Positions 12,510 to 19,720 of a DNA stretch of 32,890 nucleotides are shown in pieces (the first letter of the stretch is position 1; each line of letters starts with the position of its first letter). The notes beneath the pieces are model-generated. The model did not search any database. It was not told the DNA's origin and saw nothing but the letters and a program-made list of their open reading frames with translations. The translations under genes were made by a program, and so were the position numbers. Source of the DNA: Candidatus Bathyarchaeota archaeon (GTDB lineage Archaea; Thermoproteota; Bathyarchaeia; Bathyarchaeales; SOJC01); NCBI GenBank assembly GCA_026014805.1, contig JAOZHR010000018.1, forward strand, positions 1 through 32,890, written 5' to 3'.

Positions 12510-12614
12510 TGGCGCCGCCGGTAGGAATCGAACCTACGACCGACTGGTTAACAGCCTCAGCCTCTGATAAGCCCTACCAGAGTCAGCTGCTCTACCTAAC
12601 TGAGCTACAGCGGC
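12510..12614 (-). tRNA. tRNA-Asn(GTT) with a 28-nt intron
   Basis: The acceptor stem GCCGCTG/CGGCGGC, D-stem GCTC/GAGC and T-arm GTAGG-TTCGATT-CCTAC are intact, and G73-CCA is encoded. Removing 12556-12583 gives an anticodon arm GCTGG-CTGTTAA-CCAGT with anticodon GTT. The intron then sits between positions 30 and 31, inside the anticodon stem, not at the usual 37/38. It contains a CTCTG/CAGAG hairpin, as expected for a bulge-helix-bulge substrate. A cut one or two bases away would leave a mismatch in the stem. Mature length is 73 nt plus CCA. Confidence 0.85.
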
Positions 12615-12914: not shown

Positions 12915-13008
12915 GGGCCCGTAGCTCAGCTTGGTTAGAGCGACAGGCTCATAATCGTCTGGAAGAGAGACCTGTTGGTCGGGCGTTCAAATCGCCCCGG
13001 GCCCACCA
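12915..13008 (+). tRNA. tRNA with CAT anticodon and a 16-nt intron (elongator Met or Ile2)
   Basis: Acceptor GGGCCCG/CGGGCCC, D-stem GCTC/GAGC, anticodon arm ACAGG-CTCATAA-CCTGT and T-arm GGGCG-TTCAAAT-CGCCC fold cleanly, with A73 and encoded CCA. The intron 12954-12969 lies at the canonical 37/38 site. Anticodon CAT is 12950-12952. The G1-C72 start excludes the usual archaeal initiator. The GGGCCCG acceptor is also common in archaeal tRNA-Ile, so a CAT tRNA that TiaS converts to agmatidine-reading Ile2 is possible. Confidence 0.88.
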
Positions 13009-17071: not shown

Positions 17072-18712
17072 ATGCAATCAGAAAGGCTTCAAGACAGAAT
17101 TAGTTTGTTAAAAATTATTTCTGAGAAGGCAAAGTTAGAGGAAGGTGGAGAAGCTGTTGAAAAAATACTCCGAGAAATTTTCAGAAGTCAAAAAATAAGC
17201 ACCAGGGACCTCGCTTATTTCACGCAACTCCCAGTACCCGTTACTGCAGCTGTCAGAAGAGAGTTGGAACATGAAGGTTTGGTAGCCAGAAACGGAGGTG
17301 CCTTTTTAACCGAAAAAGGAGAGAAATTTGTCAAGGAGCAGCTGGGACTCGTTTATTCTCAGAGGGTCATATGCCCAAAGTGTCAAGGAAGAAGCATCCA
17401 AATTCCAGATAAATTCATGCCCTTGCTGAAAAAGTTGAGAACGCACCTGAGCACACGACCAAGACCTTTGCCATGGTTAGATCAGGCACATGGAACACCC
17501 GAAACAGCTCTCTTAAGAGCTCTTTTTATGCTGGAAAAGGGCGATGTTGAAGGCAGAAGAATCCTGTTTTTAGGTGATGACGACTTCACATCTATCGCAG
17601 TTGGATTGCTGAGAGCTGCAAGAGAGATCACAGTCGTTGACATGGACTCGAGATTGCTGGGAGCTATTCAACATGTTTCTAAGGGGGAAAGCTTCAATAT
17701 CACTTGTGTCGAATGCGATCTTAGGAAACCGCTTCCTAAACATCTACATCATAAATATGATGTTGTCTTCACAGATCCGCCCTATACAACTACCGGTTTA
17801 ACCCTGTTTATTTCACGCGGCATTACAGCTCTTCAACCACGAAAGGGCGCAAGCGTGTACTTGGCTTATGCCCACAAATCTCCTAAAAGAATGTTGATGG
17901 TGCAGAAGACTTTGAATGCTATGGGACTTGCAGTTGTCGAGCAAATTCCAAATTTTAACACTTATGAAGGTGCAGGAATGTTTGCTAACACAACTTTTCT
18001 AGCGCGTCTTGAAACCACAGAGAAAACGAAGCCTCTAATTACGGGGGCTTTCGGCGACAAGCTCTATACAGGCGAGATTACCCAAACTGTGCGAACATAT
18101 CAATGTCGATGTAACGAAAAATTAATGGTGGGTGTGACTGAAGCGATTAGAACTGTTGAAGAACTAAAGGCAAGTGGCTGCCCCAAATGTGGAAGCGTTA
18201 AAGGTTTCAAGCTGATAAAGAAACAAAAACTGAAGAAAGCCTTGGTCGATAGGTTGGTTTTACGCAATTTTGCGTGGGCAGATTTTCCTGCGGTACTTGA
18301 GTTTGAAAGAGAAATTGCGAGGAAATCTTTTCCAAAGGCGCCGATTCTTGATGAGAAGTATCATAGGCAGAAGCTGGAAAAAGCGGTAAAAAGGGGGCAT
18401 GATAACCTTAAAGTTGCGCTTTTGGATAACGAGATTGTTGGCTGGCTGTGGCTGAGAATCGAAAAGGACAGAAGCACAAAAGAGAAATTCGGCTACATCA
18501 AAACCATCATCGTGAAACCCAAGCATCGCTATCAGGGATTCGGAAGGAAACTCATGAAAGCAGCAAAACATCGCTTCCTGAACAATGGAATTCGCAGAAT
18601 AGACCTTATAGTATCCGCTACTAACCATGACGCTGCCTTGTTCTTCGAAGAGGTTGGCTTCGAAAGGCAACACTCAACAATGAGAAAAAGACTAGAAAAC
18701 GAAGAGAAATGA
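17072..18712 (+). CDS. bpsA: Branched-chain polyamine synthase (BpsA/DUF43) fused to a GNAT acetyltransferase
   Basis: 546 residues. About 20-95 is a winged helix, then CPKC at 101-104. About 140-315 is the aminopropyltransferase Rossmann domain with GDDDFTS (168-174) and FTDPPYT (233-239), the BpsA active-site motifs. About 343-385 is a zinc-ribbon-like segment (CRC, CPKCG) found in the family. Residues about 393-540 are an added GNAT domain with the acetyl-CoA loop RYQGFGRKL (486-494) and ending NHDAALFFEEVGFER. BpsA adds aminopropyl groups from decarboxylated SAM to spermidine to give N4-bis(aminopropyl)spermidine. Known BpsA proteins are near 350 residues and lack the GNAT part. The stop overlaps the SpeD start (ATGA), so the two form an operon. 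The GNAT substrate may be the polyamine product; this is inference. Confidence 0.88.
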   Translation: MQSERLQDRISLLKIISEKAKLEEGGEAVEKILREIFRSQKISTRDLAYFTQLPVPVTAAVRRELEHEGLVARNGGAFLTEKGEKFVKEQLGLVYSQRVICPKCQGRSIQIPDKFMPLLKKLRTHLSTRPRPLPWLDQAHGTPETALLRALFMLEKGDVEGRRILFLGDDDFTSIAVGLLRAAREITVVDMDSRLLGAIQHVSKGESFNITCVECDLRKPLPKHLHHKYDVVFTDPPYTTTGLTLFISRGITALQPRKGASVYLAYAHKSPKRMLMVQKTLNAMGLAVVEQIPNFNTYEGAGMFANTTFLARLETTEKTKPLITGAFGDKLYTGEITQTVRTYQCRCNEKLMVGVTEAIRTVEELKASGCPKCGSVKGFKLIKKQKLKKALVDRLVLRNFAWADFPAVLEFEREIARKSFPKAPILDEKYHRQKLEKAVKRGHDNLKVALLDNEIVGWLWLRIEKDRSTKEKFGYIKTIIVKPKHRYQGFGRKLMKAAKHRFLNNGIRRIDLIVSATNHDAALFFEEVGFERQHSTMRKRLENEEK

Positions 18713-19059
18713 AAAACTTGAAGCAAATCAGAGAATTATTAGTGGATTTATACGGATGCAGAGCTGACCTTGACAACGCCAAATTCTTGACGGCTGTCTT
18801 AGAAACGGCAGCTCAAAAGATGGGAAGCAAAATAATTAAAACCACGTATCATAAGTTTTCGCCAACAGGCACAACTGTCATTGTCATACTTGCCGAGACC
18901 CACATTTCAATCCATACTTGGCCAGAGCACAAATACGCTGCCTTAGACATTTTCATATGTAGCGAAGAAATAGACCCTGAAATAGGATGGCAAGCCGTAA
19001 AGGACGCTTTAAACCCATCTTCATTTGAAATTCGCAAGATTACAAGAAAAATAGAGTGA
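18709..19059 (+). CDS. speD: S-adenosylmethionine decarboxylase-type pyruvoyl enzyme (SpeD), Thr at the cleavage site
   Basis: 116 residues, the length of class 1B prokaryotic SpeD. Typical features are LLVDLYGC near the N-terminus, YHKFSPTGTT, HISIHTWPEHKYAALDIFIC, the catalytic His at about 69 and the proton-donor Cys at about 84. The self-cleavage motif is normally Glu-Ser-His; here it is Glu63-Thr64-His65 (codon ACC, 18898-18900). Ser is what becomes the pyruvoyl group. Thr could still undergo backbone cleavage, giving a 2-oxobutyryl group, or the enzyme may be altered. Decarboxylated SAM is the aminopropyl donor for the BpsA gene it overlaps. Related SpeD proteins in archaea can also decarboxylate arginine, so the substrate is not certain. 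Confidence 0.88.
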   Translation: MKNLKQIRELLVDLYGCRADLDNAKFLTAVLETAAQKMGSKIIKTTYHKFSPTGTTVIVILAETHISIHTWPEHKYAALDIFICSEEIDPEIGWQAVKDALNPSSFEIRKITRKIE

Positions 19060-19098: not shown

Positions 19099-19170
19099 AG
19101 GCACATGTTGGCGGGTGAGTGGGTGCCTCCCATCCGTTCCGCCATAAAAACCCCGGAATAGTGGAGGTGT
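19099..19170 (+). promoter_or_regulatory. Candidate pseudoknot riboswitch controlling the QueT-family gene
   Basis: AGGCAC (19099-19104) pairs with GTGCCT (19123-19128). TGGCGGG (19109-19115) pairs with TCCGCCA (19138-19144). The two helices interleave, the definition of an H-type pseudoknot. CCTCC (19126-19130) is also an exact complement of the ribosome site GGAGG (19163-19167), with G-U pairs extending it. Using CCTCC to hide the ribosome site would break the first helix, so the two folds exclude each other, as in a translational riboswitch. A TATA-like TTTATAA (19076-19082) would put a start near 19105, which would cut off the first strand; read-through from speD would keep it. Ligand, if any, might be a 7-deazaguanine. 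Confidence 0.45.
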
Positions 19171-19174
19171 AAAT

Positions 19175-19720
19175 TTGAGAATGGATGCAAGAGACCTCAC
19201 TTTGATGGCTGTCTTTACCAGCTTATATGTTGTTATCAACTTGGTTCAAGCTGTTACTGTTGGGAATCCGGCAATTTCTGGACCAGTACAGTTGCGTGTT
19301 GCAGACTGTTTAATCGCTCTTGCGGCGTTGCTTGGATGGCCTGTTGTAGCTGGAGTGACTGTTGGGTGCCTCTTAACTAACGCTTATGCTTTCGTCGGTC
19401 CAGTTGACGTAGTTTTTGGGCCAATAGCTAATTTAACTGCGGCAGTTTTAGTTCTGTTGCTTCGAAAGCGTCGATTACTGGCATGTATAGTTGCTGCTTT
19501 CCCAATAGGCATCATTGTAGGCGGTGGATATCTTTGGTGGTTTTTCGCGCCACCAGACATTTTTGGCTTAAACTTACCGGTGTGGATGGCTATGATGATA
19601 AGCATTACTGTAAGCAGTTTGATAGCTATAGCAGTAATAGGCTATGCTTTGCTGAAAGTATTAAGTATGCCTGAAGTGGTGGAGCCGTTGAAGTCTCGTG
19701 GGCTAAAAGTTTACAAATGA
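19175..19720 (+). CDS. queT: QueT-family transporter (queuosine/archaeosine precursor uptake)
   Basis: 181 residues with about five hydrophobic segments. The pattern GPVQLRVADCLIALAALLGW, GVTVGCLLTNAY and GPVDVVFGPIANL is that of the QueT family (GPIQFR..E.L, G...G..I.N, G..DVVFG). These are the substrate-binding components of energy-coupling-factor-like importers, assigned to queuosine precursors in bacteria. In archaea the natural cargo would be a 7-deazaguanine base for archaeosine. The TTG at 19175 has GGAGG 7 nt upstream; the ATG at 19181 is the alternative. A structured leader precedes it. No ECF ATPase is adjacent. Substrate is by family inference. Confidence 0.8.
   Translation: MRMDARDLTLMAVFTSLYVVINLVQAVTVGNPAISGPVQLRVADCLIALAALLGWPVVAGVTVGCLLTNAYAFVGPVDVVFGPIANLTAAVLVLLLRKRRLLACIVAAFPIGIIVGGGYLWWFFAPPDIFGLNLPVWMAMMISITVSSLIAIAVIGYALLKVLSMPEVVEPLKSRGLKVYK

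Follow-up and report, generated by a model that had tools for sequence, protein, structure and literature searches.

The locus raises the question of what precedes the queT gene of an archaeon that belongs to the Bathyarchaeota, and whether this short stretch controls the gene at the RNA level. The window, i.e. the whole stretch of DNA that was analyzed (32,890 nucleotides), is a contig from a genome (G000) of 1.79 Mb with a completeness of 96.6%. The open reading frame behind the leader matched the ECF-type transporter family PF06177 (E 9.7e-23, 81.5 bits, above the Pfam gathering score of 33.7), confirming its assignment to the QueT family in a sequence-only reading of the same DNA. Its start codon is TTG, located 7 nt 3' of GGAGG, and the start position is conserved among homologues. 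Besides the AdoMet decarboxylase gene (Table 1), a branched-chain-polyamine-synthase-like gene lies upstream on the same strand. Elsewhere in the window, two tRNA genes were found (12513-12614, minus strand; 12915-13005, plus strand), which, with about 91-102 nt, have room for introns; ARAGORN missed one of them and left the anticodon of the other unnamed. The reading put forward here, with a probability of about 0.75, is that the element, forming the 5' leader of the queT transcript, functions as an archaeal translational OFF riboswitch, which would bind a 7-deazaguanine, most likely preQ0.

Archaea make archaeosine from preQ0 (PMC5372724). For this purpose, preQ0 is inserted into their tRNA as a base. 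The gene for TGT was present in the host genome; QueF was not found in it, nor was a full-length QueC, partial PP-loop matches being restricted to open reading frames of 528 and 483 amino acids. Within this family, a full-length QueC was encountered in G002 only, inside the queT operon. The simplest reading is that the organism salvages preQ0 for archaeosine. In this organism, the leader would thus regulate base uptake.

Table 1. Features of the queT locus (positions in the window)
Feature	Position	Strand	Remarks
AdoMet decarboxylase gene	18709-19059	+	5' of queT, same strand
TATA-box-like element TTTATAA	19076-19082	+	A+T peak in homologous leaders
AGGCAC, 5' arm of the helix proposed earlier	19099-19104	+	outside the conserved element; unconserved, no pairing signal, 5' of or level with the predicted transcript start
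Conserved leader RNA, candidate aptamer and expression platform	19109-19169	+	about 61 nt; match to model R1 and class-wide homologues
P1 5' strand GGCGG	19110-19114	+	GC/CG/AU/UA/GU covariation with 19139-19143
5' junction GUGA	19115-19118	+	conserved; GUAG, GUAA or GUGG in other leaders
P2 5' strand GUGGG	19119-19123	+	partner 19129-19133; covariation weaker but significant
Anti-Shine-Dalgarno strand GUGCCUCC	19123-19130	+	core CCUCC 19126-19130; complementary to 19163-19170; covaries across genera
P2 3' strand CCCAU	19129-19133	+	pairs with P2 5' strand
3' junction CCGUU	19134-19138	+	conserved, near-invariant in 121 leaders
P1 3' strand CCGCC	19139-19143	+	pairs with P1 5' strand; covariation
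Conserved tail AAACCCCGG (AAAnCCCGG)	19148-19156	+	near-invariant
Shine-Dalgarno strand GGAGGUGU	19163-19170	+	core GGAGG 19163-19167; covaries with the loop strand
queT	19175-19720	+	substrate component of an ECF-type transporter; PF06177 match

When used as a DNA query within the same family, the leader was found 5' of QueT in ten relatives, with 82-96% identity. It is better conserved than the protein behind it, as the QueT of G002 shares 26% amino acid identity with that of the window versus 83% identity for the leader. A covariance model (R1), built from ten sequences, matched the window at 19106-19177 (97.6 bits). It also matched 129 of the 163 genomes of the order, 181 of the 257 genomes of the class Bathyarchaeia, and 18 further genomes elsewhere in the phylum, in a phylum sample that was drawn evenly and in which many genomes are draft metagenome assemblies. 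When 84,980 species of bacteria and archaea were scanned with a gapped exact pattern, 117 stretches matched; all 80 matches listed out of these 117 were archaeal, belonging to Bathyarchaeota, Methanomethylicota/Verstraetearchaeota, Nitrososphaerota, and one Njordarchaeum. The same scan of viral contigs gave no matches. The good copy in Njordarchaeum guaymaensis (L224), 5' of a QueT-like open reading frame, suggests either spread beyond the phylum of the window or a binning error. One relative (G004) possesses a QueT gene without the leader RNA. A degenerate leader copy occurs in G012 (L023:569-599) beside an AdoMet decarboxylase gene; no QueT match was obtained in this incomplete draft genome, and the copy looks like decay after gene loss.

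Alignment of 121 leaders revealed a consensus order consisting of P1 gGCG(G/C), the junction GUGA (or GUAG, GUAA, GUGG), P2 GUGG(G), a loop xCCUCC, the P2 strand (C)CCAC, the junction CCGUU, P1 (C/G)CGCc, a spacer of variable length, the tail AAAnCCCGG, a few nucleotides, GGAGGN, and the start codon. The tail possibly contributes to a pocket or a tertiary contact. P2 and the helix between its loop and the Shine-Dalgarno sequence share nucleotides, namely the same C residues, so that both cannot be complete simultaneously. When folded alone, the leader had a mildly unusual energy (z -1.6), and the minimum-energy fold paired the Shine-Dalgarno region in a nested hairpin ACCCC/GGAGGU, both being points against the riboswitch reading. 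This predicted pairing of AAAnCCC with the Shine-Dalgarno sequence was discarded, as it lacked covariation (p 0.23). Similarly, pairing of AAAnCCCGG with GUGA (p 0.41) or with the P2 5' strand (p 0.89) gave no covariation signal.

This architecture differs in part from that of the sequence-only reading, which had drawn an H-type pseudoknot out of two interleaved helices, AGGCAC/GTGCCT and TGGCGGG/TCCGCCA. All words that it quoted are present (AGGCAC, 19099-19104; TGGCGGG, 19109-19115; GTGCCT, 19123-19128; TCCGCCA, 19138-19144; CCTCC, 19126-19130; GGAGG, 19163-19167) and complementary in the window, and the TGGCGGG/TCCGCCA helix is real and has been conserved. This does not hold for the AGGCAC/GTGCCT helix: most homologous leaders within the family lack AGGCAC while keeping the other parts. 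Furthermore, pairing of the 16 nt before P1 with the loop equalled the permuted level in the 121 homologues (mean duplex energy -4.54 versus -4.56 kcal/mol, p 0.56), and a helix pair of the H type that was at least equally good arose in 230 out of 1000 dinucleotide shuffles of the leader (23%). In addition, the A+T content of 120 homologous leaders peaked between -36 and -28 relative to P1, in the manner of a TATA box. Given the usual distance between TATA box and transcript start in archaeal promoters, the queT mRNA probably starts about 19103-19107, as predicted from the sequence, a few nucleotides 5' of P1, which leaves AGGCAC largely or wholly outside the RNA. The TATA-like element, previously counted as a point against a riboswitch, thus only removes the wrong helix. 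The AGGCAC/GTGCCT pseudoknot was therefore rejected, its unconserved, chance-level pairing and a 5' arm that reaches no further downstream than the predicted start making the structure as originally drawn scarcely credible. The complementarity of CCTCC to the GGAGG ribosome site, also pointed out there, is real and conserved. As judged from the aligned leaders, the conserved pseudoknot is the one between the P2 loop and the Shine-Dalgarno sequence. The idea that only one of two states can exist survives in a modified form, in which P2 competes with the loop x Shine-Dalgarno helix for common nucleotides.

Covariation was assessed by genus-level and within-family permutations, standing in for a phylogeny-aware test such as R-scape. 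P1 was paired in 99.2% of the 121 aligned leaders, with GC, CG, AU, UA, and GU versions. P1 and P2 together contained 27 double-changed cells, compared with 7.7 in shuffled data (a value reached in none of 500 shuffles), in an alignment that was fitted to P1 and P2 and hence somewhat favours both. The loop x Shine-Dalgarno helix was absent from the model, which makes its test independent. Across 78 genera, its mean duplex energy was -12.8 kcal/mol versus -11.3 kcal/mol upon permutation (0 of 20,000 permutations), and the within-family permutation was significant as well (p<=0.001). The base beside CCUCC and the base beside GGAGG paired in 54 cases against 44.9 expected (p 0.0007). Also, the length of the C-run correlated with that of the G-run (r=0.72), with agreement in 20 of 20 genera for which P2 offers no explanation. 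Fully rewired versions of the helix were found in L190 (UUUCCGAC/GUCGGAAA), L145 (UCAUCUCC/GGAGAUGA), and L188 (UUGCCUCC/GGGGGCAA). In six leaders, P2 was down to two pairs or fewer, yet the pseudoknot run still counted 5-7 pairs; L163 had a weak pseudoknot (3). The comparison of leaders indicates that complementarity of the P2 loop to the Shine-Dalgarno sequence is maintained even where both strands change. The covariation among homologues that had been suggested as a check was thus obtained for both stems and, most clearly, for the pairing of the loop with the Shine-Dalgarno sequence; the AGGCAC/GTGCCT helix showed none.

These data bear on two alternatives. P1 and P2, which form an imperfect inverted repeat, could serve, just 3' of the TATA box, as a DNA operator for a transcription repressor, and a location over the transcript start is typical of archaeal repressors. 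This is very unlikely, however, because loop and Shine-Dalgarno sequence covary across 35-50 nt, compensatory flips in P1 (GC to CG) are not needed by an operator, and conservation extends via the tail up to the start codon. Likewise, the element could be a leader without a ligand, tuning translation constitutively or sensing temperature, with a loop that imitates the 3' terminus of 16S rRNA and fixes the basal level of queT translation. Indeed, the CACCUCC of many loops equals the 16S tail, and loop and Shine-Dalgarno sequence may each be constrained by 16S rRNA. Nevertheless, pairs such as those in L190 are unlike 16S, and the near-invariant unpaired GUGA, CCGUU, and AAAnCCCGG as well as the restriction to one pathway are unexpected for such a leader, which makes it a highly improbable explanation.

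The gene context ties the element to 7-deazaguanine metabolism. The first downstream gene was QueT in 108 of 115 loci and QueC in two (L148 and L151, of G104 and G103, respectively). In these two, a QueT-like gene follows, so that the order is reversed and the RNA still comes first, indicating that it tracks promoter position and not one particular gene. The first gene of L141 reads as a QueC-like PP-loop protein. In two further loci, both from Nitrososphaerota, a QueE-like gene comes first (L205, 1504-2208, minus strand; L215, 4556-5236, plus strand); QueE was the best NCBIfam match for both, under the curated cut-offs, and a QueC-like gene follows in L205. QueC was the second gene in 35 of the 55 second genes scanned. 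Hence, transport (QueT), CDG synthesis (QueE), and preQ0 synthesis (QueC) have a common leader. An unnamed membrane family of about 230 amino acids came first in four loci (L170:5318-6004, L196:3070-3771, L197:3070-3771, and L189:3069-3785). It had no Pfam or NCBIfam match, and in a profile comparison with QueT, no more than 22 N-terminal residues matched (probability 30%); it is a candidate new 7-deazaguanine transporter. These four loci, like the leaderless QueT gene of G004, count against the riboswitch reading. In the one remaining locus of the 115 (L118), the first gene is probably a frame mis-pick.

The neighbourhood also bears on the alternative that the leader RNA is a protein-binding site. 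The strict sequence conservation of junctions and tail would fit such a site too, and the structural data are the same as for a riboswitch. However, no regulator gene recurred beside the element among the genes scanned, the neighbours being QueT, QueC, and QueE, and the described regulators in queT leaders that were reviewed recently are riboswitches (PMC11625349). A protein site is therefore considered unlikely. The riboswitch reading, in turn, agrees with the finding that metabolite genes are preceded in cis by a 5' leader whose structure is conserved and covaries.

As to known systems, the element of the window and seven homologous loci gave no Rfam match at the gathering threshold. The preQ1 families, i.e. 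preQ1-I, preQ1-II, and preQ1-III (which we take to be RF00522, RF01054, and RF02680), were not matched up to E 10 by the element of the window, L088, or L145, in agreement with the earlier remark that the leader does not fit the preQ1-I or preQ1-II consensus; no covariance-model match to any preQ1 class was obtained. Two weak sRNA matches of L088 in Rfam (E 2.8 and 4.8) were dismissed as chance. No published description of such an element was found in the open-licence literature searched.

The element nevertheless shares the queT or 7-deazaguanine gene context and a pseudoknot able to engage the Shine-Dalgarno sequence with the preQ1 classes, while lacking both a covariance-model match and a bacterial distribution (80 of the 80 matches listed being archaeal). 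A 2024 review of preQ1 riboswitches gives bacterial phyla and does not mention archaea (PMC11625349). Like preQ1-II (the COG4708/queT leaders of Streptococcaceae and relatives), the element is a queT leader with the Shine-Dalgarno sequence in a pseudoknot and presumably acts by translational control, as preQ1-II does (PMC11625349), but preQ1-II is limited to Bacillota (PMC11625349), its sequence and stem layout differ, and its model does not match here. PreQ1-I is likewise a compact pseudoknot, with anti-Shine-Dalgarno/Shine-Dalgarno pairing in translational examples, and precedes que biosynthesis and transporter genes; it is, however, much smaller, is given only for bacterial phyla in the review, does not match by model, and differs from the archaeal element in that the latter has a second stem and the conserved AAAnCCCGG tail. 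PreQ1-III also combines queT leaders and a pseudoknot, but measures about 100 nt, is mostly metagenomic and from Ruminococcaceae (PMC11625349), and its model does not match either. The crcB/fluoride riboswitch (RF01734) shares archaeal occurrence (PMC2864571), whereas its sequence, genes, and ligand are unrelated. By analogy, the element resembles preQ1-II and translational preQ1-I in its presumed working, yet by covariance model it is outside every described class.

The proposed mechanism is as follows. The junctions GUGA and CCGUU and the tail AAAnCCCGG would form a pocket. A bound ligand would favour the loop x Shine-Dalgarno pseudoknot, thereby turning off translation of queT and, in related operons, of queC or queE. 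In the ligand-free state, P2 would form and leave the ribosome site free. This assignment of bound and apo states and the OFF direction follow the example of preQ1 riboswitches, in which ligand binding sequesters the Shine-Dalgarno sequence (PMC11625349). PreQ0 would be the likeliest ligand because QueE, QueC, and QueT all serve the preQ0 pool; alternatively, preQ1 or some other 7-deazaguanine may bind. The suggestion of a new archaeal leader RNA linked to a 7-deazaguanine, already contained in the sequence-only reading, is strongly supported by covariation, distribution, gene context, and the absence of an Rfam match, the ligand itself being deduced.

Taken together, a real, widely conserved RNA able to hide the queT ribosome-binding site very probably represents an undescribed riboswitch class. 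It may well be the fourth structural class of 7-deazaguanine riboswitches, the first archaeal one, and the first for preQ0 or another archaeosine precursor, distributed over Bathyarchaeia, Methanomethylicia, some Nitrososphaerota, and a Njordarchaeum, and relying on a pseudoknot that the Shine-Dalgarno sequence itself forms under the control of a ligand. Few archaeal riboswitch classes are known; the three classes covered by the 2024 preQ1 review have been described from bacteria only. If true, the element would constitute a class-wide archaeal regulator of the supply of a tRNA-modification precursor, in lineages with little or no genetics. Furthermore, it marks pathway genes, so that any gene behind it, the unnamed membrane family included, becomes a candidate for a role in taking up or making 7-deazaguanines.
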